This document shows, piece after piece, positions 3,879 through 25,885 of a stretch of 39,990 bases of DNA (the first letter of the stretch is position 1; every line of letters starts with the position of its first letter). The position numbers were made by a program, and so were the translations under genes. Below the pieces are notes generated by a model that was given only the letters and a program-made list of their open reading frames with translations, did no database searches and was not told where the DNA came from. The stretch comes from Pseudanabaena cinerea FACHB-1277 (lineage in GTDB: Bacteria; Cyanobacteriota; Cyanobacteriia; Pseudanabaenales; Pseudanabaenaceae): assembly GCF_014696345.1 (NCBI RefSeq), contig NZ_JACJPY010000037.1:1-39990 (forward strand), in the 5' to 3' direction.

Positions 3879-6476
3879 ATGACATCTCCGCAATCCCAAG
3901 ACAACCCATCAATTAAGCAAACTGCGTTAGAAAACGTGACGGCTGGCGGTGATATTAATGTCACTACTCATCAAAATATCACTATTCATCAAGTGGTTTC
4001 TGCTCAACCCGTGGCGATCGCTGCAACCCTGAATACGACACCGCCACCTGTGGATGAATGGCAGGGACGACAGGATGAAATCAAGGAACTCCAAACTGCC
4101 CTAAGCAATGACAAAGTCCGCTTAATCGGGATGACCGCCGCAGGAGGCTATGGTAAATCGGCTTTAGCGGTGAAATTCAAGGAGCAGTTAACCCCTGATT
4201 GGCGGGTGTTGTGGGTGAGTTTTATCCAGCCTTATCCTTTGGCGCAATTTGGGCGATGGTTATTGGAGGAGTTGGGACGAGATTATGATGAAAAATGGGA
4301 CGAGGAGACGTTAATTGGGCAGATCGTCGAAGGGTTAATTGCTGAGCCTTGTTTGTTGGTGTTGGACAATATGGAAACGGTGATACCAGCAGAAGGGAAG
4401 TCGGTTTATGGTCAATTTTTGAGCCAATGGTTAGGGAATGGGATGCATAGTAAGCTACTGCTCACCAGTCGGGAACAGCCAGTATTTAGCGCCAATTTGC
4501 TACCGCGTTGTTATTGGTTAGCGCTAAAGGGGTTAGCAGAAGCCGATGCGATGCGTTTGGTAACGGAAGACTATGGTTTAACGGGAACGCAGAAGGAATT
4601 AGCCCATTTTGTGAACCGAATGGATCGGCATCCTCTCTTGATGCAACTGGTATCGAGTTGGATGCGGGAGGAATTGGGGGAAGGGGTTGGTGTGACAGAG
4701 ACGGAAAATTTGGGCTTAGATTTGTTTACGGTGGAGGGTTATCACCGTGATACGGAAACCTGTGTCAGGGAAGTGGTAGCGGCGAGTTTGGCGCGATTAT
4801 CGGCAAGGTTAGGGGATATTTTAAAGCGGTTGTCGGTATTGCGAGGGATTTTTGATCTAGGGTTAGCTCAGGGGTTAACTGCCGAGGTAACGGAGGCAGA
4901 GTTACGGTATTTAGCCCGTTTGTCGTTGTTGCAGGAGTTTCCACCCGAACCGCTCAAGGGAAAACCGCGACGGTTTCAGTTTTTGCCTTTAATTTCGATG
5001 GTGGTGCAACAGCAAGCGGATTCTGAGTTGTTGCGATCGGCGCATCAGGCGGCGTTGGATTATTTTTTGGCACATTTACCTGCGCCACCATGGGAATCGT
5101 TGGAGGATTTGACGGCGTATTTAGAGGGTTTCTACCATGCAGGGGAGTTGGGAGAATGGCAGTTAGCTTTTGATATTTTGAATGAGGAGAGAGGAGGAGA
5201 AGGGAAAAATAAATCGGTTGATCAATTTCTGGAATTTCAAGGGTTTTATCGTCAGCAGGCACAGTTATATGAACAGGTAGTTGCGGGGAGTCAGCGAGAA
5301 CAAGATTGTCATCGCAAATCGTTAAACAGTCTGGGCAATTGTTATAATTCCTTGGGGCAGTATGAAAAAGCGATCACCTATCACCAGCAACATCACAACA
5401 TCAGTGAAGAAATGGGTAATCGACAAGGAGAGGCAAGTTCTCTAGGTAATTTAGGCAATTGTTATGCATACTTGGGGCAGTATGAAAAAGCGATCGCCTA
5501 TCAGCAGCAATCTCTCGAAATCGAAGAAGAAATAGACAATCGGCAAGGCGTAGCAAATTCTCTAAGCAATTTAGGAAGTTGTTATTATTACTTGGGACAG
5601 TATGAAAAAGCGATTGCCTATCAGCAGCAATCTCTCGAAATCAAAGAAGAAATCGGCAATCGGCAAGGCGTAGCAAATTCTCTAGGCAATTTAGGAAGTT
5701 GTTATTATTCCTTGGGGCAGTACGAAAAAGCGATTGCCTATCAGCAGCAATCTCTCGAAATCAAAGAAGAAATCGGCAATCGGCAAGGCGTAGCAAATTC
5801 TCTAGGCAATTTAGGCAATTGTTATTATTCCTTAGGGCAGTATGAAAAAGCAACCGCCCATCACCAGCAAGATCACGATATCAGTGAAGAAATAGGTGAT
5901 CGGCTAGGCGTAGCAAATTCTTTAGGGAATTTAGGCAATTGTTATTATTCCTTGGGGCAGTACGAAAAAGCGATTGCCTATCAGCAGCAATCTCTCGAAA
6001 TCAAAGAAGAAATCGGCAATCGGCAAGGCGTAGCAATTTCTCTATGCAATTTAGGCAATTGTTACTATTCCTTAGGGCAGTATGAAAAAGCGATCGCCTA
6101 TCTCCAACAACAGCGTGACATCAGTGAAGAAATCGGCGATCAGCAAGGGGTGGCAATTTCTCTACACAATATAGGGAAGACATTGCTCAAACTTGAAAAC
6201 TACAGCGAATCAGAAACTAAAATTCAAGAATCCTTAGTTATTTCCCAAGAGATTAACTATAAGAATTTAATCGCCGACAGTTTAAAAGCTCTTGCCGATA
6301 TTGCCCATCAAACCAATCAACCCCAACTCGCCCTCACCCATTGCCAAGCCGCCCTCACCCTCTCCAAAGAACTTGGCATTCCTTTAGTCAAAGAATGCGA
6401 AGAACTCCTAGCAAAAATTCAGAAGGACTTAGATCCCCCTCAATCCCCCTTAAAAAGGGGGAAGAAGAAAAATTAA
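3879..6476 (+). CDS. STAND NTPase: NB-ARC-like domain plus TPR array
   Basis: This is a protein of 865 residues. The first 60 residues hold an ENVTAGGDINV segment of the kind found in front of bacterial signalling NTPases. The NTPase follows: Walker A AAGGYGKS at 87-94, Walker B LLVLDN with Asp at 163, a sensor strand LLLTSREQP, and a helix RHPLLMQLV typical of the NB-ARC helical domain. From about residue 480 to 830 it is tetratricopeptide repeat. Seven units of exactly 40 residues (NCYYSLGQYEKAIAYQQQ type) are followed by diverged ones. Family knowledge: STAND proteins bind a ligand through the repeats and oligomerise on ATP; many act in defence or programmed death. No effector domain such as TIR, caspase or nuclease is visible, so the output is unknown. 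The last 14 residues (DPPQSPLKRGKKKN) are translated from an inverted-repeat element. Confidence 0.88.
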   Translation: MTSPQSQDNPSIKQTALENVTAGGDINVTTHQNITIHQVVSAQPVAIAATLNTTPPPVDEWQGRQDEIKELQTALSNDKVRLIGMTAAGGYGKSALAVKFKEQLTPDWRVLWVSFIQPYPLAQFGRWLLEELGRDYDEKWDEETLIGQIVEGLIAEPCLLVLDNMETVIPAEGKSVYGQFLSQWLGNGMHSKLLLTSREQPVFSANLLPRCYWLALKGLAEADAMRLVTEDYGLTGTQKELAHFVNRMDRHPLLMQLVSSWMREELGEGVGVTETENLGLDLFTVEGYHRDTETCVREVVAASLARLSARLGDILKRLSVLRGIFDLGLAQGLTAEVTEAELRYLARLSLLQEFPPEPLKGKPRRFQFLPLISMVVQQQADSELLRSAHQAALDYFLAHLPAPPWESLEDLTAYLEGFYHAGELGEWQLAFDILNEERGGEGKNKSVDQFLEFQGFYRQQAQLYEQVVAGSQREQDCHRKSLNSLGNCYNSLGQYEKAITYHQQHHNISEEMGNRQGEASSLGNLGNCYAYLGQYEKAIAYQQQSLEIEEEIDNRQGVANSLSNLGSCYYYLGQYEKAIAYQQQSLEIKEEIGNRQGVANSLGNLGSCYYSLGQYEKAIAYQQQSLEIKEEIGNRQGVANSLGNLGNCYYSLGQYEKATAHHQQDHDISEEIGDRLGVANSLGNLGNCYYSLGQYEKAIAYQQQSLEIKEEIGNRQGVAISLCNLGNCYYSLGQYEKAIAYLQQQRDISEEIGDQQGVAISLHNIGKTLLKLENYSESETKIQESLVISQEINYKNLIADSLKALADIAHQTNQPQLALTHCQAALTLSKELGIPLVKECEELLAKIQKDLDPPQSPLKRGKKKN
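5341..6180 (+). repeat. seven tandem 120-bp repeats inside the TPR region
   Basis: Seven units begin at 5341, 5461, 5581, 5701, 5821, 5941 and 6061, each exactly 120 bases and each beginning GTTAT or GTTAC. Neighbouring units are nearly identical at DNA level over long stretches, including third codon positions. Each encodes one 40-residue TPR of the tetratricopeptide/kinesin-light-chain type. The DNA identity points to recent expansion or gene conversion, so copy number may vary between strains. Confidence 0.93.
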
Positions 6477-18334: not shown

Positions 18335-19351
18335 TTACGAATTATTTTGTGCTGGCAGAGGACTATTAGTTTCTGATGGCTTCACCTCAACTTGCTTATC
18401 AGAACCTTTACCAGTTTTTGCTAAATAGATACCACCGATAATCACGGTAAAGCCTAGCCAATTGATCAAACTTAAGCTTTCGTCAAACAGCACCCATGCC
18501 AGAATTGCCGCAATCACAGGATCTAGCAGAAACACGATCAGAATGAATGTCGAAGAAAAGTGTTTGAGGCTATAGACCGTTAGTCCATGTCCCAAAGCTT
18601 CACAGATCACGGCGAGTCCAAATACGGCAAGCCAACCTGACCAAGAAGCTGGAAAGAATTGCTCTTGATGAAGCAGTATGAGCGGTAACGTCAAATAAGC
18701 GCCCACCAAGCACCGCCACATAAGTATAGTTTGCACTGCAAAATTATTTCGCAGATACTCTAAGATTAAATAAGTGCCTGCATATAAAACGGCACAGCCA
18801 AGAGCAGCCAAATCGCCAACAAGACTATCCTGAGACACCAGTAAATCATCTAATCCTAAAATTGCAGCACCTATGATCGCCAATACCATACCAATCAGAA
18901 ACTTGCGATCAAAAATCCGTTGAAAGAATAACCATGCCCCCAAGGTAGTAAATATTGGACTTAAGCCACCCAATACATTGGCGTTAGCAACACTAGTTTG
19001 CGTCAAAGACCAAGTCCAGAGCAGACGACCCAACATATAGGCTAGGGAGGCTGCCAGTAATAGGGCATAGTCACCTGCATGGTGGGGTTGTTTGGGTATA
19101 GACGGAGTATCAGATTTTTGAGCGCGTAACTGATAGAGTCCATTCCACAATCCAAATATTAGTGCCGCGATCCAAGAGCGATTGAATAAGGTTACATTAA
19201 TGCTCATTTCTATTAGCGAAAATTTGACCAAAATCCCCGTAACCGATAGAGCCAATAAGGCGACAATTAGCAATATGAAGGGAATGACTTTTGATCGAGA
19301 TTGAGCCGATGGGAGACCGATATCTGCTATTTCTTGGTTATTAGTAGTCAT
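18335..19351 (-). CDS. EamA/DMT-superfamily transporter
   Basis: This is a protein of 338 residues with about ten membrane helices arranged as two EamA repeats. The second repeat contains ILVFLLDPVIAAILAWVLF and the conserved LNWLGFTVIIGGIYL end. Drug/metabolite transporters of this type usually export small metabolites. Its start overlaps the last 11 bases of the nucleotidyltransferase gene, so it is translationally coupled as the last gene of the six-gene unit that begins at 25670. Export of the product of that unit is a reasonable inference; the substrate cannot be read. Confidence 0.9.
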   Translation of the reverse strand: MTTNNQEIADIGLPSAQSRSKVIPFILLIVALLALSVTGILVKFSLIEMSINVTLFNRSWIAALIFGLWNGLYQLRAQKSDTPSIPKQPHHAGDYALLLAASLAYMLGRLLWTWSLTQTSVANANVLGGLSPIFTTLGAWLFFQRIFDRKFLIGMVLAIIGAAILGLDDLLVSQDSLVGDLAALGCAVLYAGTYLILEYLRNNFAVQTILMWRCLVGAYLTLPLILLHQEQFFPASWSGWLAVFGLAVICEALGHGLTVYSLKHFSSTFILIVFLLDPVIAAILAWVLFDESLSLINWLGFTVIIGGIYLAKTGKGSDKQVEVKPSETNSPLPAQNNS

Positions 19352-20192
19352 TTAAATTTTCGGTAATTAGGAGTTCATCAAGACTATCGATCAAAGCATT
19401 TATTAGATTGAGGTGGCGATCGCTAAGCTGAGAAGAGTCGAACGTCAGGCATCCTGTTTGATCTGTCTGATTGAGTAAATTTGACAGGTGATTTTCCATA
19501 TCTGGAGGATATTTTGGACAAAGCTGCTTGACAAACTCTACCAAACGTTTCTCCCCAGGATGAGGGACATAATTAACCGCAAAAATAATATCGAAATAAC
19601 TAGCAAGCAAAGCCGTTATTCGATGATTAATACTAAAGTAGTCTCGGCGTTCTATGGCTAATTCTATTTGATGCAAATATGATGAGATGTTTCTGCGGAG
19701 AATCGGATAATTCTTGGCAACGATCGCCTTTCTCAATGGTTCAGGATAGGGCTGATTGGCAAAAGATTGGAGCTGTCTAAACCATCCTGTTTTGTCGTAT
19801 AGAATTTGGGAATGCAAAACATTAGACCAAAAGCAAGTGGTATAGCCAATGCTGGGTTGATGTTTGACTAAAATCGCTTCAAGCTGTGCTTCAATCCAAG
19901 CAGGATCTCGATACATAATGTCTACACCAATACCTGACTCAGTGACGATCCACTCATCGCCATTCTCCCAATATTGGTTGTTAATTTCAACCCTCACAGC
20001 AAATTTTTGAGCGATCGCGGTTCTAATTTGCGGAGGAATTTCCTCGGAAACATAAACATAAAAATCTAAATCTGATCGGCGATCGGCAACGAGACTCGTT
20101 TGAGAACCCGCTAAAACAACAGCCACAACCTGAGCCAAACCGCTAAATTGATCGGCGACTGTTTGAACAAAATCAGCAACTTCTTTTTGCAT
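19341..20192 (-). CDS. nucleotidyltransferase-fold protein (DUF4037/aminoglycoside adenylyltransferase-like)
   Basis: I use the ATG at 20192 (283 residues). A longer frame starts at 20297, but its first 35 residues lie over glucokinase and are not protein-like. The active-site motif is GS at 29-30 followed by DLDFYVYV, with metal-binding D41 and D43, as in the pol-beta nucleotidyltransferase fold. The C-terminal 150 residues are helical, as in aminoglycoside nucleotidyltransferases and DUF4037 proteins. The usual reaction is transfer of AMP to a hydroxyl of a small molecule. It overlaps glucokinase upstream by 20 bases and the exporter downstream by 11, so all three are coupled. Lincosamide or aminoglycoside resistance, or a step in a sugar pathway, are both possible. 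Confidence 0.75.
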   Translation of the reverse strand: MQKEVADFVQTVADQFSGLAQVVAVVLAGSQTSLVADRRSDLDFYVYVSEEIPPQIRTAIAQKFAVRVEINNQYWENGDEWIVTESGIGVDIMYRDPAWIEAQLEAILVKHQPSIGYTTCFWSNVLHSQILYDKTGWFRQLQSFANQPYPEPLRKAIVAKNYPILRRNISSYLHQIELAIERRDYFSINHRITALLASYFDIIFAVNYVPHPGEKRLVEFVKQLCPKYPPDMENHLSNLLNQTDQTGCLTFDSSQLSDRHLNLINALIDSLDELLITENLNDY

Positions 20193-21141
20193 ACCAAGCC
20201 GCCCCCTGTAAGCCTGTGTATTGATTGAGAATAACGTATACAGGTATCGACTGCAAAAAGTTACGCATTTTATCCTTATTAACGAAATTCTCGACAAACA
20301 AGGGCTGGCGCAAACTTGCTAAAATGCGAGGAGCCATCCCCCCACCCAAATAAATTCCGCCAGTACTAAAATACTTAACTGCGGCATTACCCGTTTCCGC
20401 CGCCAAAATTGAGACAAAAAGACGCAGTGCCTCCACGCATATCGGACATTCACTACCCTGAGCAGCTTGATTAATAGCCGCAGCCTTGTCATCAATTTGC
20501 AGATTTTGCTCCAATAATTGAGGACTATCTTTAAACTTGGTATCGCGCAGGAAATTGTAGATCTGCACTAAACCTTGACCACCGAGAATAACCTCATAGC
20601 TCACCCTCTTGTAGTCCCGTTGCGTGTAACAAAGCAGATCCCATTGCTGTTGATCATAGGGACCAAAATCAGAATGTCCACCTTCCGATGGAATTACGTG
20701 GATCTTACCTTCCACTTCAACGATCGCTGCTTCTCCTAAGCTAGTCCCAACGGCAACGACAGCGCGATTACCCCCTGACAACTTATCACCAATATTTAAT
20801 GTTACCAACTCATCGTCCCGCAAAGTTTCCACACCATAGGCTGTGGCTTCCACATCATTGAGTAAACTCACGGGGCTATCAATCAATGTAGCCAATATCT
20901 CGGCATCGATCACTTCCCAAGGAACATTCGTTAATTTACATTTACCCTCTTTGACAGGACCTGGCACACCGAAACAAGCAGCTTTGATGGCATATTTAGT
21001 GTTTTCCAGAAACTGCCGCACCACATCCTGCAAGCTCTTATACTCTTGGCTTTTATAAAGATGTTGATCAAGGATGGTAAGGTTGTCGTCAAATACCGCT
21101 AATCGAACGTTAGTGGCTCCAATGTCGCCTGCTATAATCAT
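20173..21141 (-). CDS. glk: glucokinase
   Basis: This 322-residue protein phosphorylates glucose to glucose-6-phosphate with ATP. Family features are the N-terminal phosphate-binding loop GDIGATNVRLAVF, the sugar-binding block NVPWEVIDAE and LLNDVEATAYG, the adenosine loop VAVGTSLGEAAIV, SEGGHSDFGP with the glucose-contacting Glu and His, and the C-terminal GGIYLGGGMAPRI. The length and all blocks are those of the bacterial Glk family. It lies between the HAD/dehydrogenase fusion and the nucleotidyltransferase, so here it may feed a sugar phosphate to that unit rather than serve only central metabolism. Its gap to the upstream gene holds a heptamer-repeat element. Confidence 0.93.
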   Translation of the reverse strand: MIIAGDIGATNVRLAVFDDNLTILDQHLYKSQEYKSLQDVVRQFLENTKYAIKAACFGVPGPVKEGKCKLTNVPWEVIDAEILATLIDSPVSLLNDVEATAYGVETLRDDELVTLNIGDKLSGGNRAVVAVGTSLGEAAIVEVEGKIHVIPSEGGHSDFGPYDQQQWDLLCYTQRDYKRVSYEVILGGQGLVQIYNFLRDTKFKDSPQLLEQNLQIDDKAAAINQAAQGSECPICVEALRLFVSILAAETGNAAVKYFSTGGIYLGGGMAPRILASLRQPLFVENFVNKDKMRNFLQSIPVYVILNQYTGLQGAAWYAKRSC

Positions 21142-21147
21142 GGTTTA

Positions 21148-21266
21148 ATCAAGGAAAAAGGAAAAAGCTGGATGGTAGGATATTCAATGTTTTTAAGGAA
21201 AAAGTGGAAAGCAAAAAGGAAAAATTCGATTATTTCTTACTTTTTACTTTTTACTTTTTTCTTGAT
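21148..21266. repeat. purine/pyrimidine-split repeat with ACTTTTT heptamers, copy 1
   Basis: The left half is purine-rich (TCAAGGAAAAAGGAAAAAG and GGAAAAAGTGGAAAG-like stretches). The right half carries about three tandem copies of ACTTTTT and ends CTTTTTTCTTGA, an inverted match of the start. It fills the spacer between glucokinase and the upstream fusion gene. A related copy sits in the next spacer at 23105-23187. Confidence 0.6.
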
Positions 21267-21270
21267 CGTT

Positions 21271-23088
21271 TTAGGGGAAGTCTATTACTAAAGCTCGGCA
21301 GTCCGATCGCTGATGGATATCAACTGCATCGGTGGTCAAGTTAGAGGACAAGACTTGATGAGTTATTATAGGACTTAAATCTATTTGTTTTGTACAGATT
21401 AGTTCTAATGCTCTGCGGAAATGCTCTGGCTTGTATCGATAGCTACCATGAATTTTAAGAGAGCGGTAGTGGATGAGGTTAGGATCACCTGTAAATTTTG
21501 TGCCTGGGGGAGTGCCACCAAATTCCACAGCCGTACCGCCACAACGGAGTAGGCTCATCGACTGTTCATAGGTTTGTCGGTTGCCTACTGCTTCTATGAT
21601 CACATCAGCGCCATAGCCCTGCGTTTCTTGATTCACTACCGCTTCTAAGGATTCATGTTGAATATTTACGACCCGAAATGCACCCAAATCTAGGGCTTGT
21701 TGCAGCGCTTCATCATGTTTGCCAGCGATTATAACCTTGGTTGCCCCTTGAAGACGCGCTAACTGCACAAAGGTCAACCCCACGCCCCCATCCCCTAAAA
21801 TCACGACAATATCTGAGTTGCCAATATCTGACTTGCCAATATCTGACTTGCCAATATTAGACAAGTCCATAGCTTGAAGGATGCAGGCAAGGGTCTCAGT
21901 ATAAGCACCCTCCGCATAGGTGATATTTGGAGGAAGTTCAAAAATGCGATCGACCAATGGCGCAGGAACCAATACATACTCAGCCATGCCGCCTGAAGCT
22001 AATAGGGTTGGATTGAGGCAATGTCCCCATTCCTTAACTTGACAATAGTAACATTGACCACAAGGACGTTCGGGATTGAGTGTGACACGCATTCCCACTT
22101 TAACATTGGTGACATTTGCTCCCACCGCTACGACATCACCTGCAAACATCCTACCAAAAATTTCGGGTGGCTGATGCTTGGCATGTCCAACTAAAACTGC
22201 CCGCACGTGCATAGCCGAAAAAAAGCATTTCTTGACTTTAATCAGCACTTCTTCTGTATTCGGTCCAAGGAGATCCACTTGTTCCCATCGGAAATTTTCG
22301 CGCCCAGCACCGTACCAGATCGCCGCCCCCATCTTTGTGGGGATAATTGGCTTGGTTAGGATAACTTTATCTACCCTATTAGATACTTGATCGGGGCTAG
22401 GATCTGCGCGATCAGCAAAGCTAGATAGAGAAATAAAATGCTTTAACCAAGATTCAGTGATCTGGGTGAGTGAGTCTAGTTTGGCATCGGCGATCGCTAG
22501 TCGCGTATCTTCTCTATCCAATGGTGCAGGAATAGCAATACACCGCATGGAAGCAGCTTTGGCACTGATAATGCCGCGAATAGAGTCTTCAAAGGCTATA
22601 CATCTTTGGGGAGCTACACCTAATTTCTCAGCAGTGTGCAGATATACCGCAGGATGGGGTTTGCCGAATGCTTCGTACTGGGCAGAACTGACTACATCAA
22701 AGGCGTTTTCTAAACCTAGTTTATGCAGTACTGCCCCCACTAGGCGCATGGGTGATGATGTTGCCAAGGCTAAGGGCAATTGCAGCCGCCGACAGAGTTG
22801 CACAGCTTCTACGGCTCCATGCAATGGTTGTCCGCAGGTAGCTACCAGTTCACTAACACGACTAATAATCCTTTCGGCTACCACGGTTTGATCGGGAGCT
22901 TTCCAAGGAAATCTTGCATACCAATAACTAACGACTTCATCGGTTCGCAAGCCCATAGTTTGACTACACATACTTAACTCCAAGGGTACGCCTAGATCTT
23001 GGAATACTTCCAGTTCGGCTTTGCACCAGAGAGGTTCGCTGTCAATTAGCAAACCATCCATATCAAAAATTAGGGCTGAATTTAGCAT
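21271..23088 (-). CDS. fusion: HAD phosphatase (YniC/HxpB-like) + zinc-type alcohol dehydrogenase (MDR)
   Basis: The ATG at 23088 is preceded by GGAG at seven bases, so I prefer it (605 residues) to the upstream start at 23127. Residues 1-230 are a HAD sugar-phosphatase or phosphomutase-like domain: DMDGLLIDSEPLW with D9 and D11, TSS motif II near 110, GKPHP with K143, and FEDS with E167/D168. Residues about 255-605 are a medium-chain dehydrogenase with four structural-zinc Cys at 343, 346, 349 and 357 and a nucleotide loop GDGGVG near 432-437. The catalytic-zinc GHE is replaced by GRM (312-314), although a Cys remains at 288. Before the nucleotide loop three SDIG(K/N) repeats come from tandem 18-bp copies. 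A single protein could thus oxidise or reduce and dephosphorylate one sugar. It is co-directional with its neighbours. Confidence 0.9.
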   Translation of the reverse strand: MLNSALIFDMDGLLIDSEPLWCKAELEVFQDLGVPLELSMCSQTMGLRTDEVVSYWYARFPWKAPDQTVVAERIISRVSELVATCGQPLHGAVEAVQLCRRLQLPLALATSSPMRLVGAVLHKLGLENAFDVVSSAQYEAFGKPHPAVYLHTAEKLGVAPQRCIAFEDSIRGIISAKAASMRCIAIPAPLDREDTRLAIADAKLDSLTQITESWLKHFISLSSFADRADPSPDQVSNRVDKVILTKPIIPTKMGAAIWYGAGRENFRWEQVDLLGPNTEEVLIKVKKCFFSAMHVRAVLVGHAKHQPPEIFGRMFAGDVVAVGANVTNVKVGMRVTLNPERPCGQCYYCQVKEWGHCLNPTLLASGGMAEYVLVPAPLVDRIFELPPNITYAEGAYTETLACILQAMDLSNIGKSDIGKSDIGNSDIVVILGDGGVGLTFVQLARLQGATKVIIAGKHDEALQQALDLGAFRVVNIQHESLEAVVNQETQGYGADVIIEAVGNRQTYEQSMSLLRCGGTAVEFGGTPPGTKFTGDPNLIHYRSLKIHGSYRYKPEHFRRALELICTKQIDLSPIITHQVLSSNLTTDAVDIHQRSDCRALVIDFP

Positions 23089-23104: not shown

Positions 23105-23187
23105 TCAAGGAAAAAGTAGAAAGGCAAAAGGAAAAAGAAAGTAGATTACTTTTTACTTTTTACTTTTTACTTTTTACTTTCCCTTTT
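23105..23187. repeat. purine/pyrimidine-split repeat with ACTTTTT heptamers, copy 2
   Basis: It begins TCAAGGAAAAAG like copy 1, is purine-rich for 40 bases, and then has four tandem ACTTTTT heptamers and a closing TTTCCCTTTT. The right end touches the stop codon of the dehydrogenase gene. It resembles the short tandem heptamer repeats known from filamentous cyanobacteria. Confidence 0.6.
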
Positions 23188-24178
23188 AAGCGTTCATGTC
23201 AACAAAGGTACGAGTACCTAGTTGGGGGTTCCAAGCGGTTAGTTCTTGGGGCAGATTTTGCAGAGAAATCACGCGCCCTAGTAATTGTTCAAAGAAGGCT
23301 TCATCATTGCGAATGTAGTCGATCGCTTTGCCCATAGTCTGCTCAGTCGCACCCGCGAAGGATGTGATTACGGCAATTTCCCGCATAAACAACTCATGGG
23401 GAGAGATCGGCAAAGGGATTCCGACTTTGGGAACACCATAAATGCAGACTAGTCCAGCCTTACGCACAGATGTCAAAGCCGTATCTAAGCCATTGGGAGA
23501 ACCAGAGCATTCAATCACTAAGTGAGCTTTGTCTTTTACGACTTCCGTTATCCTTTCTATCCCCAATTTCTCAGCCCAAAGAATTGGCTGGTTGACGATA
23601 TCATACAATTTGATATTGCCTTGGAATTGAGGAGAATGCGTCAATAAGTAACCGACTAAAGATCCTGACAGTCCACCACCGATAATGAGAGTCGTTGGTT
23701 GGTCAACTGACCACAGATTTGCAGTAGCCAGAATACGTTCTACACCCCTCACCGCACAACTCAAAGGTTCGATGAGAATCCCCAAAGATGGATTAGAAAA
23801 GACAAAGGGGTATAGAGAACTTCTAGGCGCAAGCATTTTTTGGGCATATCCGCCGTTACAGTTTACTCCTAATTCTTGCAAGTTCTGGCAGTGGCTGGTG
23901 AGTCCTTCTTGGCAATAGCTACATTCACCGCAGGAGATTTCGTTGTTGAGGGCAAAGTAAGTCTGTTCATCAGGTATTTGGCAAACAACCTCATGCCCCA
24001 AAATCAATTCTTGACCTTTTGGCAATTGGTTAGGGGCTGTGGCAGTTATTTGTTGATCGGTTTTACAAAGTCCCACAAATTGAACATCGGCGATTACTTC
24101 TCCTGCTTGGGCGATCGCTGGTGTGGGAACATCGCGAATTTCTATTTTGTTAGCTCCGTAGAGAACTGCGGCTTTCAC
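23186..24178 (-). CDS. zinc-dependent medium-chain dehydrogenase
   Basis: This is a protein of 330 residues with a GTG start at 24178 that has GGAG seven bases upstream. The catalytic zinc set is intact: C38 (GLCKTD), H62-E63 (LGHE) and E137 (IEPLSC). The structural zinc Cys are at 83, 86, 89 and 97. The nucleotide-binding loop is IGGGLSGSL near 170. The enzyme should oxidise or reduce a secondary alcohol with NAD(P). The N-terminal domain is slightly short between H62 and the zinc loop. It lies between the class III aminotransferase and the HAD/dehydrogenase fusion; a ketone made here could be the aminotransferase substrate. Confidence 0.9.
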   Translation of the reverse strand: MKAAVLYGANKIEIRDVPTPAIAQAGEVIADVQFVGLCKTDQQITATAPNQLPKGQELILGHEVVCQIPDEQTYFALNNEISCGECSYCQEGLTSHCQNLQELGVNCNGGYAQKMLAPRSSLYPFVFSNPSLGILIEPLSCAVRGVERILATANLWSVDQPTTLIIGGGLSGSLVGYLLTHSPQFQGNIKLYDIVNQPILWAEKLGIERITEVVKDKAHLVIECSGSPNGLDTALTSVRKAGLVCIYGVPKVGIPLPISPHELFMREIAVITSFAGATEQTMGKAIDYIRNDEAFFEQLLGRVISLQNLPQELTAWNPQLGTRTFVDMNA

Positions 24179-24208: not shown

Positions 24209-24241
24209 AAAGATAGGCGGCGCTTTGCGCCGCTTATCTTT
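24209..24241 (-). terminator. 15-bp hairpin between aminotransferase and dehydrogenase
   Basis: The arms 24209-24223 and 24227-24241 pair with a single G-T wobble around TTT, and the core reads GGCGCTTTGCGCC. It overlaps the stop codon of the aminotransferase. No U-tract follows, so it may attenuate or stabilise rather than fully stop the transcript into the downstream genes. Confidence 0.5.
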
Positions 24242-25670
24242 AGTTATTTAGAACTACTCCTAGTTTTTGGAGTACTTGATCAAGCATCTCAATGACCAAA
24301 TCAATTTCTTGATGGGTGATGTCGAGATAGGGCGCAAATTTAAGGGTGTTGAGATTGTAGCCGCCTGTTTGTAAGATCATGCGCCAGGTTTTGCCCTGCA
24401 CTTTAAAATCATTATCCTGAGCGATCGCGGCGGCTATTTGAGCGGAGTTTTGGTAAGGGATACCCTCCTCATTAGCAAAGGTCATGTTTAGCAACAATCC
24501 CAAGCCATCGACACTATAGACAATAGAATGTTTGGACTGCAACTGTTGCAGCTTTTCTAGGAAATAAGCGCCCTTTTCTGGGACTGACTTCTCGTAGTCC
24601 TGAGACATCATGTATCGCCAAGTACCTAGAGCCGCCGCCGTGCCTAGAGGATGGTTCGCAAAGTTGCTATGGGCGTGCCCGGGGGTGAATACATCTGGAT
24701 GTACTAAATCTTCCCTAGCCCAAACTAGGCTAACTGGACTCAAGCCATTGGTAAAGGATTTGCTGAGGGTAATAATATCGGGAACGAATCCAAAGTGTTC
24801 AAAGGCAAATAATTTCCCTGTACGGTACATCCCCACTTGAATTTCATCGGCAACTACCAACAGCCCTCGATCTTGCAAATCTTGGACAAAGCCTCGATAG
24901 AAATCCTTAGGTGGAATAGTGTAACCACGTCCTTGACAAGGCTCAATCACAACTGCACCAACTTCGGCATCACTAACACTAGCAATACCATAATACTCGT
25001 TGGAAAAAGCTTTACTAATCATGCGAGCACAATATAGGTCGCAGGTTTCTCTCTCCTTTTCGTAGAAGCATTGGGAGCAGTTAGCAAAGGGAAACATGAT
25101 TGCGCGATCGGGAAACTCATTATAGTACTGTCGATAGCGATGACTACTAGAAAGCGATAGAGTGCCAAGAGAGCGCCCATGATAAGCACCCATTAACACA
25201 GCGACCTTATTTTTTTTAGTGTTTTTTCTAACAATTTTGAGCGCATCTTCAACAACCAGAGAACCACCAACATTGAAAGATACACGACCCTTCACACCCG
25301 TTCTTGCATAAATGGCATCAACAACTTCTTTGGCAATTAATAACTTCTCTCGGTGCAAAAAATCTCCACAGGCTTGAGGCAATGTACCCAGTTGCTTAAA
25401 AACTGCTGATTCAATGTAAGGATTGCGATAACCAAAGTTGCAGCTTGAGTGCCACATTCCTGTATCAAAGTAGGTGTTGTTATGATCATCAAACAACAGC
25501 CCACCCTGACACCCCGTAGCCATAATCGGCTTTTCTTGGTAATGAACCGTGTCTCCCCAACTCATGTATTCTTGGTCAATCAAGCGTAGATCATCATGAT
25601 GTGTTGAGCGATTGTTGCCGTTGTTTGGCTCGTCACCTAAAGTAAATCTCGGATTTTCTAACTCTAACAT
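24240..25670 (-). CDS. PLP-dependent class III aminotransferase
   Basis: I choose the ATG at 25670 (476 residues). The longer frame from 25784 adds 38 residues of AT-rich, non-homologous-looking sequence. PLP features are GAYHGRSLGTLSLS, EPCQGRGY, DEIQVGMYRTG with Asp 275, and the Schiff-base lysine 304 in TLSKSFTNGLSP. An insert with CSQC (198, 201) and CDLYC (C210, C214) may bind metal or an iron-sulphur cluster, as the CxxC of some GABA aminotransferases does. The enzyme moves an amino group to an aldehyde or ketone. It is the first gene of the six-gene unit. The lysine and fold type are certain; the substrate is not. Confidence 0.9.
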   Translation of the reverse strand: MLELENPRFTLGDEPNNGNNRSTHHDDLRLIDQEYMSWGDTVHYQEKPIMATGCQGGLLFDDHNNTYFDTGMWHSSCNFGYRNPYIESAVFKQLGTLPQACGDFLHREKLLIAKEVVDAIYARTGVKGRVSFNVGGSLVVEDALKIVRKNTKKNKVAVLMGAYHGRSLGTLSLSSSHRYRQYYNEFPDRAIMFPFANCSQCFYEKERETCDLYCARMISKAFSNEYYGIASVSDAEVGAVVIEPCQGRGYTIPPKDFYRGFVQDLQDRGLLVVADEIQVGMYRTGKLFAFEHFGFVPDIITLSKSFTNGLSPVSLVWAREDLVHPDVFTPGHAHSNFANHPLGTAAALGTWRYMMSQDYEKSVPEKGAYFLEKLQQLQSKHSIVYSVDGLGLLLNMTFANEEGIPYQNSAQIAAAIAQDNDFKVQGKTWRMILQTGGYNLNTLKFAPYLDITHQEIDLVIEMLDQVLQKLGVVLNN

Positions 25671-25885
25671 TCTGTGCCTGGGCTTGTGGATAATGTAATA
25701 TTGGGATTTTATCTTTATTGTGTTTGAATTGTATTTATATGGGATTTCTGAATGATTTATTATAAAATCTTTCACTGAAATCACATTTTAAGTATTTTTA
25801 TGCTACTTAAAAGATTGATCCTATATGCAACGATAGTACAAATATAAGGATTACTGTTGTTTTGAGTTATACAATCGGCGCACTA

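Follow-up and report, generated by a model that had tools for sequence, protein, structure and literature searches.

Azasugar gene clusters have been described by Beal and Horenstein (PMC8382821, cited here, like the other papers below, from an excerpt) as adjacent genes for an aminotransferase, a phosphatase and a dehydrogenase, in which the aminotransferase belongs to a 40%-identity cluster and carries the motif SGNxFR...PYCxRC. In that excerpt, neither the C2 epimerisation nor the reduction that forms the 1-deoxy compounds is yet assigned to an identified enzyme. For a Streptomyces, the route to deoxynojirimycin is described as ending in cyclisation, dehydration and, finally, reduction of the nojirimycin dehydrate (excerpt of PMC6713920), and in another iminosugar pathway an enzyme of family PF00107 prefers cobalt (excerpt of PMC11844564). 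As to cyanobacteria, the excerpt of PMC8402191 names Cylindrospermum as a genus in which the glucosidase inhibitor DMDP was found, and notes that there was no report of nojirimycin from the phylum; the search it describes of Synechococcus for the Bacillus enzymes returned only aminotransferase-like matches, a result that counts against an azasugar reading of the locus presented here. Our searches of the open-licence PMC literature found no description of a cyanobacterial azasugar cluster.

Zinc-free enzymes of the MDR superfamily are known from plants. In DPAS the catalytic zinc is absent and only the structural one is left, and the enzyme reduces an unsaturated iminium (excerpt of PMC9828224), and the excerpted part of a review (PMC12224309) describes DPAS-like enzymes and RedOx1 as reductases of iminium without catalytic zinc. 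In plant GS, by contrast, activity is gone once the zinc ligands are mutated (excerpt of PMC9828224), which counts against a simple transfer of the DPAS picture to the bacterial protein studied here.

We have analyzed a stretch of 39,990 nucleotides from Pseudanabaena cinerea FACHB-1277, referred to as the window. On its minus strand an operon runs in the order aminotransferase (AT), MDR1, a HAD-MDR2 fusion, glucokinase (Glk), a nucleotidyltransferase-like gene and an EamA-family exporter (Table 1). The N-terminal half of the fusion protein matches Pfam HAD_2 (2.5e-27) and PDB entry 1te2 (1.2e-56), and its score of 271.4 bits against the NCBIfam hexitol phosphatase HxpB, with a cut-off of 191, places it in that family; the motif residues D9, D11, T110, K143 and D168 are all intact. 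The other half matches ADH_N (2e-18) and ADH_zinc_N (1.1e-26), and with its GroES-like and Rossmann domains, and structural cysteines found in 11/11 orthologues, MDR2 belongs to the MDR superfamily with structural zinc. The 605-codon frame and the Pfam matches bear out the original prediction of complete HAD and MDR domains in a single frame; D9, D11, K143, D168, the GRM of residues 312-314 and the four structural cysteines all lie where it had placed them, and the intact dehydrogenase it had seen next door is MDR1, which carries GHE. A tandem SDIG(K/N) repeat had also been predicted and is present, its unit being 15 bp and not 18 bp as first given. Translated as SNIGK-SDIGK-SDIGN-SDI, it forms a 10-residue insertion ahead of the Rossmann fold that is private to the window and absent from ten relatives. 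Note that the spacers flanking the fusion frame (window 21151-21263 and 23107-23180) share AAGGAAA / TTACTTT short-unit repeats, and that seven tandem 120-bp units (85% matches) at window 5334-6175 probably belong to a repeat protein.

Table 1. Features of the fusion gene and its operon, in window coordinates.
Feature	Position	Strand	Remarks
HAD-MDR2 fusion ORF	21271..23088	minus	605 codons + stop; ATG at 23088, stop at 21271
HAD phosphatase domain, residues 1-225	22414..23088	minus	hexitol phosphatase HxpB type; D9, D11, T110, K143, D168
Linker, residues 226-255	22324..22413	minus	internal Met253 (22330-22332) close to unfused MDR2 gene starts
MDR2 domain, residues 256-605	21274..22323	minus	Pfam match, alignment and tree
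S291, position of the catalytic-zinc Cys	22216..22218	minus	residue alignment
G312-R313-M314 instead of GHE	22147..22155	minus	residue alignment
Structural zinc Cys 343, 346, 349, 357	22018..22062	minus	residue alignment
15-bp tandem repeat, 3.4 copies	21807..21857	minus	97% matches (repeat scan)
MDR1	23186..24178	minus	GHE intact; nucleotide site of NAD type (beta-2 ends in Asp)
Class III aminotransferase (AT)	24240..25784	minus	Pfam/NCBIfam
Glucokinase (Glk)	20173..21141	minus	Pfam/NCBIfam
Nucleotidyltransferase-like gene	19341..20297	minus	no Pfam match itself; G111 orthologue weak Polbeta/DUF4037
EamA-family exporter	18335..19351	minus	Pfam

Orthologues of MDR2 were sought in overlapping genome samples that cover part of the phylum, and further genomes with MDR2 may exist. 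With the fusion protein as query, 1/38 genomes matched in the family sample (E <= 1e-20). A phylum sample gave matches in 39/386 genomes at 1e-50; three of these carry MDR2 (70-100% identity), and the remaining 37 matches are to paralogues with 34-39% identity. Further samples at 1e-90 gave a match in 2/217, 9/195 and 3/387 genomes. The MDR2 set has 11 members (window, G111, G455, G209, G664, G649, G638, G695, G714, G627 and G600) and was compared with 27 paralogues, namely those of the 37 paralogue matches for which loci were returned, with nine MDR1 sequences, from which L056 and L059 were excluded as a cross-match or fragment, and with four azasugar-type MDRs.

The GHE histidine is replaced by arginine in 11/11 MDR2 proteins, where 27/27 paralogues, 9/9 MDR1 and 4/4 azasugar-type MDRs have histidine. 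The glutamate of the same motif is methionine in 11/11 as against glutamate in the 40 others, and the acid/base threonine is likewise methionine (M293 in the window) in 11/11 as against threonine in 40/40. As evidenced by the presence of GRM in 11/11 MDR2 and 0/27 nearest paralogues, the replacement predicted from one genome does recur in its homologues, and a sequencing error is ruled out as its cause. The position of the catalytic cysteine is more variable, with serine in five proteins (S291 in the window) and cysteine in six. S291 and M293 had escaped the original prediction. All 11/11 proteins retain E398, the glutamate of EPLAC, with threonine instead of the proline that follows it; structural cysteines and Rossmann glycines are present throughout. 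MDR2 thus departs from the zinc-dependent MDRs, which combine the cysteine, the histidine and glutamate of GHE and an acid/base threonine or serine. In the tree it forms a single clade with branch support of 100/100, the tree tool warning that long branches meet deeper, and the five serine-bearing rows are one clade (100/97), so that the catalytic cysteine was lost last. As read from alignment and tree, the zinc site is lost stepwise within one clade, histidine, glutamate and threonine ahead of cysteine, and the altered site is conserved across a cyanobacterial MDR family whose operon is azasugar-like; searches of open-licence PMC found no description of it. Scans of the viral collection for further MDRs confirmed no relative.

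In the MDR2 alignment (n=11), 156/350 positions are invariant. The dN/dS analysis was run on the window and 3/10 relatives and yielded ratios for three MDR2 pairs, 0.06 for window-G111, 0.08 for window-G455 and 0.12 for G111-G455, which indicate purifying selection, with dS above 1.6 in two of the pairs and synonymous sites near saturation in both pairs with the window. MDR2 had the lowest ratio of four genes in two pairs, the exception being window-G455, where AT was lower (0.073 vs 0.077); the window-L053 pairs were saturated and gave no ratio for AT, MDR1 or MDR2. In our view MDR2 is probably a zinc-free yet functional MDR, as had been suggested for this half of the protein: the change is fixed in 11 sequences, the acid/base threonine included, and a working enzyme also fits the kept structural cysteines, the intact nucleotide site and the low dN/dS. 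Because the cysteine is kept in 6/11 proteins and Glu398 in 11/11, MDR2 may nevertheless bind a metal. After beta-2 MDR2 has Gly-Lys and MDR1 an aspartate; by the usual rule the former points to NADP(H) and the latter to NAD(H), which suggests that MDR2 uses NADP(H) and MDR1 NAD(H). The structure model of the fusion protein reached a mean pLDDT of 56.5, and its MDR alignment rows were partly placed on the HAD half. That of MDR2 alone reached 61.3, and as most of the loop from S291 to before R313 lies below 50, the model is no evidence on metal binding. Foldseek ranked 4ejm (4.2e-22) and 4ej6 first for the MDR2 model, zinc-binding dehydrogenases by title, and such ranks say nothing on metal in MDR2 either.

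Within the stretch fetched around the 11 MDR2 genes, Glk and EamA are present in 11 loci each, AT and a full MDR1 in nine each, and a full-length HAD and the nucleotidyltransferase-like gene in eight each. Glk and EamA are the closest company of MDR2, which would not be expected of a pathway made up of AT, MDR1, HAD and MDR2 alone; the Glk of the window is the sole match of its kind in its genome at E <= 1e-10. The window-type AT has no match genome-wide at 1e-60 in G695 and G600, MDR1 was not found in the G695 locus and is a fragment in that of G600, and these two loci may be decaying clusters. HAD orthologues also occur in loci without matches to Glk, EamA, AT or MDR in Dolichospermum (L006), Richelia (L010), Moorena (L009) and Cryomorpha (L011) and on the short contig L008, and HAD alone is therefore not diagnostic of the pathway. 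A PDB search with the G111 orthologue of the nucleotidyltransferase-like gene gave no convincing match; the gene may possibly serve tailoring or self-protection. In Microseira wollei (L007 3750-6765) the window-type AT lacks its middle part, and a gene that by eye resembles a transposase stands between AT and MDR1.

The window does hold a class III AT, an MDR and a phosphatase in adjacent positions, as in the azasugar clusters. Its AT, on the other hand, shares 27.5% identity with the AT of the Paenibacillus polymyxa cluster, 26% with that of Streptomyces and 28-29% with two cyanobacterial GabT1-like ATs, and reads SSSHRYRQYYNEFP...FANCSQC in place of the motif. At 26-29% identity and with no motif it fails the azasugar signature, which counts against the pathway, and we do not claim membership in the canonical three-gene cluster. 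The AT of Cylindrospermum sp. FACHB-282 (L005) is 48% identical to that of P. polymyxa and carries SGNAFRKEPFPN...VPDPYCHRC, nearly fitting the motif in the PMC8382821 excerpt. In G455 a single locus combines an azasugar-type set and a window-type set, and MDR2 is followed there by an additional Glk fragment; in G111 a 113-residue match to a GabT1-like AT, interrupted by an internal TGA, lies as a remnant beside Glk. The simplest reading of these arrangements would be the exchange of an AT-MDR1-HAD-MDR2 module into an azasugar-type locus.

The azasugar-type clusters with GabT1-like AT, at L005 3296-11707 (Cylindrospermum) and L052 2082-14586 (G455), are a lead for DMDP-like inhibitors; the report of DMDP concerns the genus, FACHB-282 not being itself a stated producer. 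On its plasmid, P. polymyxa has MFS, AT, gutB1 and HAD genes in a row and DUF1349 next on the other strand. DUF1349 (PF07081) is found near azasugar-type and window-type clusters in G455, Microseira wollei, P. polymyxa and, by annotation only, Streptomyces (L052 15873-16421; L007 3037-3615; L090 8531-9142; L091 8491-9048). An open-licence PMC search for DUF1349 together with azasugars found no paper.

We consider the chances of an aminopolyol or azasugar-like pathway to be evenly poised. The complete route, in which an operon akin to the azasugar clusters would yield an aminated sugar or polyol by way of a dedicated MDR2, its catalytic zinc site replaced by arginine and methionine and the protein fused here, is put forward as a tentative proposal whose prospects fall somewhat short of even. 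Glk would supply a hexose 6-phosphate, AT would aminate a keto-sugar phosphate and the HAD domain would take off the phosphate, whereupon MDR1, zinc-dependent and of NAD type, could oxidise a free hydroxyl. Ring closure of the resulting amino-aldehyde would give a cyclic imine or hemiaminal; a zinc-free MDR2, its cofactor probably NADPH, would then reduce the imine to a 1-deoxy azasugar or pyrrolidine, and EamA would export the product. Our best single proposal for MDR2, and a doubtful one, is that it reduces a ring imine with NADPH and without zinc. Speaking for the route are the residue changes fixed in 11/11 MDR2, the low dN/dS, the gene order shared with P. polymyxa, the Glk, HAD and EamA orthologues beside an azasugar-type AT in Cylindrospermum, the mixed locus of G455, the 1-deoxy step that has no assigned enzyme and the precedent of DPAS. 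Against the route stands the persistence of MDR2 without the window-type AT (G695, G600) and with a broken HAD (G695, G627, G600).

The same gene company might serve another aminated sugar, kanosamine- or aminocyclitol-like, instead of an azasugar. An AT that is not GabT1-like (26-29%), the glucose 6-phosphate implied by Glk and the nucleotidyltransferase-like gene of 8/11 loci point that way, but HAD, Glk, EamA and the site are common to a canonical-looking azasugar cluster, DUF1349 accompanies both cluster types, and no sugar-phosphate cyclase occurs among the ten locus proteins scanned, so that on balance such a product seems rather unlikely. Alternatively, MDR2 could act in the proposed pathway as a zinc-free MDR with other chemistry, be it an epimerase-type oxidoreduction, a reductive dehydration or an enoyl/1,4-reduction. 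The zinc-site and acid/base changes fixed in 11/11 proteins agree with this, DPAS carries out 1,4-reduction of iminium and enal (excerpts of PMC9828224 and PMC12224309), and the C2 epimerisation, too, is without an assigned enzyme in the excerpt of PMC8382821; no gene of the locus, however, obviously yields an unsaturated substrate, none of the observations tells these reactions apart, and we consider this chemistry unlikely.

The fusion itself is confined to the window. All 10/10 other loci encode MDR2 in a frame of its own (349-378 aa) downstream of HAD, so that 1/11 is fused; the HAD of those ten is intact in seven, carries a frameshift in G695 and retains only the C-terminal half in G627 and G600. 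In G111, whose MDR2 is the sister of the one in the window (tree support 100/97), HAD and MDR2 share a frame with one TGA between them, because of which the fusion is derived and little more than loss of a stop would have been needed; the window linker also differs in length. In the tree, unfused proteins surround the fused one, which rules out fusion as the ancestral architecture; judged by tree and gene order, it is a late local event, presumably through loss of the stop between adjacent genes. Since the internal Met253 lies near the usual start of MDR2, MDR2 may still be translated separately. The two-domain architecture on which the original prediction had focused, present in one locus and late, is hence not the main point. 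That prediction had also named homologues encoded as separate genes with GHE intact as a sign of error; the genes are indeed separate, but the relatives carry GRM.

A sequencing or assembly artefact, with HAD and MDR2 in reality separate, overlapping or coupled genes, could be suspected from the single fused locus among 11, from the draft state of the window genome (179 contigs) and from the position of Met253 inside the linker near the start of other MDR2 genes. The same-frame genes of G111 with their single TGA nevertheless place the fused state one easy step away, and both halves are intact and the linker open, which makes an artefact improbable. A plasmid search with the fusion protein returned 1882 records, the best identity of each below 60%, and in the best 2 of the 1882 by joined-piece query cover HAD and MDR are separate genes; in the Catenovulum record a regulator gene stands between them. 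On a Rhizobium plasmid (L092 2486-5659) HAD adjoins an MDR with GHE, which bears the annotation 'sulfurtransferase', and a gene of sugar-isomerase type stands beside them. These neighbours appear to stand in no recognised azasugar context, which counts against an azasugar reading of the HAD-MDR pairing. An open-licence PMC search for HAD-MDR fusions and iminosugars found nothing relevant.

Very improbable, finally, is a role for MDR2 without catalysis of its own, as a partner or regulator of MDR1 or Glk. The lost catalytic residues, MDR1 next door and the linkage of Glk in 11/11 loci suggest it; against it stand nucleotide-binding glycines in 11/11, the 156/350 invariant positions, the low dN/dS and the survival of MDR2 in G695 and G600, in whose loci MDR1 is not found or is a fragment. 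The latter also speaks against MDR1, the partner envisaged by the original prediction, as the sole partner of MDR2, while the wider partner reading stands as a rival.

The ring-imine reductase reading, if true, would provide a candidate for the azasugar step that the literature lists without an enzyme. It would also set a bacterial counterpart beside the plant MDRs that work without zinc, and would point to genes behind glycosidase inhibitors of cyanobacteria. In a speculative extension that we regard as quite unlikely, MDR2 would stand at the head of a lineage of bacterial imine reductases, zinc-free and of MDR type, that perform the last azasugar reduction in cyanobacterial clusters of which open-licence PMC searches gave no description; here it would be tied covalently to the phosphatase of the pathway.

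Compared with the azasugar three-gene cluster (gabT1-yktc1-gutB1; the AT-dehydrogenase-HAD type of Paenibacillus and Chitinophaga), the window likewise has AT, MDR and HAD adjacent, and its order AT-MDR1-HAD is that of AT-gutB1-HAD in P. polymyxa. It differs in its MDR1, which shares about 25% identity with GutB1 of P. polymyxa across 170 residues, in the extra MDR2, glucokinase and EamA, and in an AT without the published motif. The 12.7-kb Cylindrospermum locus L005 shares orthologues of the window Glk (75%), HAD (73%) and EamA (74%), yet has a GabT1-like AT and one GHE dehydrogenase and contains no MDR2, window-type AT or MDR1. HxpB (1te2) resembles the HAD half, which in the window is joined to an MDR in an aminotransferase operon. 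The bifunctional mannitol-1-phosphate dehydrogenase/phosphatase (NF046057) also joins an N-terminal HAD phosphatase to a polyol dehydrogenase, but the match covers the HAD part only (1.9e-16) and, with 59.7 of 800 bits, stays far below the cut-off; its dehydrogenase belongs to another superfamily than MDR. With the zinc-free plant MDRs of the DPAS type, as excerpted, MDR2 shares replaced zinc ligands including the catalytic histidine, retained structural cysteines and a lost proton relay, a likeness drawn from residues and not from a direct tree. In contrast to these, MDR2 is bacterial, its replacements are His to Arg, Glu to Met and Thr to Met, and where DPAS keeps an acid/base serine or threonine, MDR2 has Met293 in 11/11.
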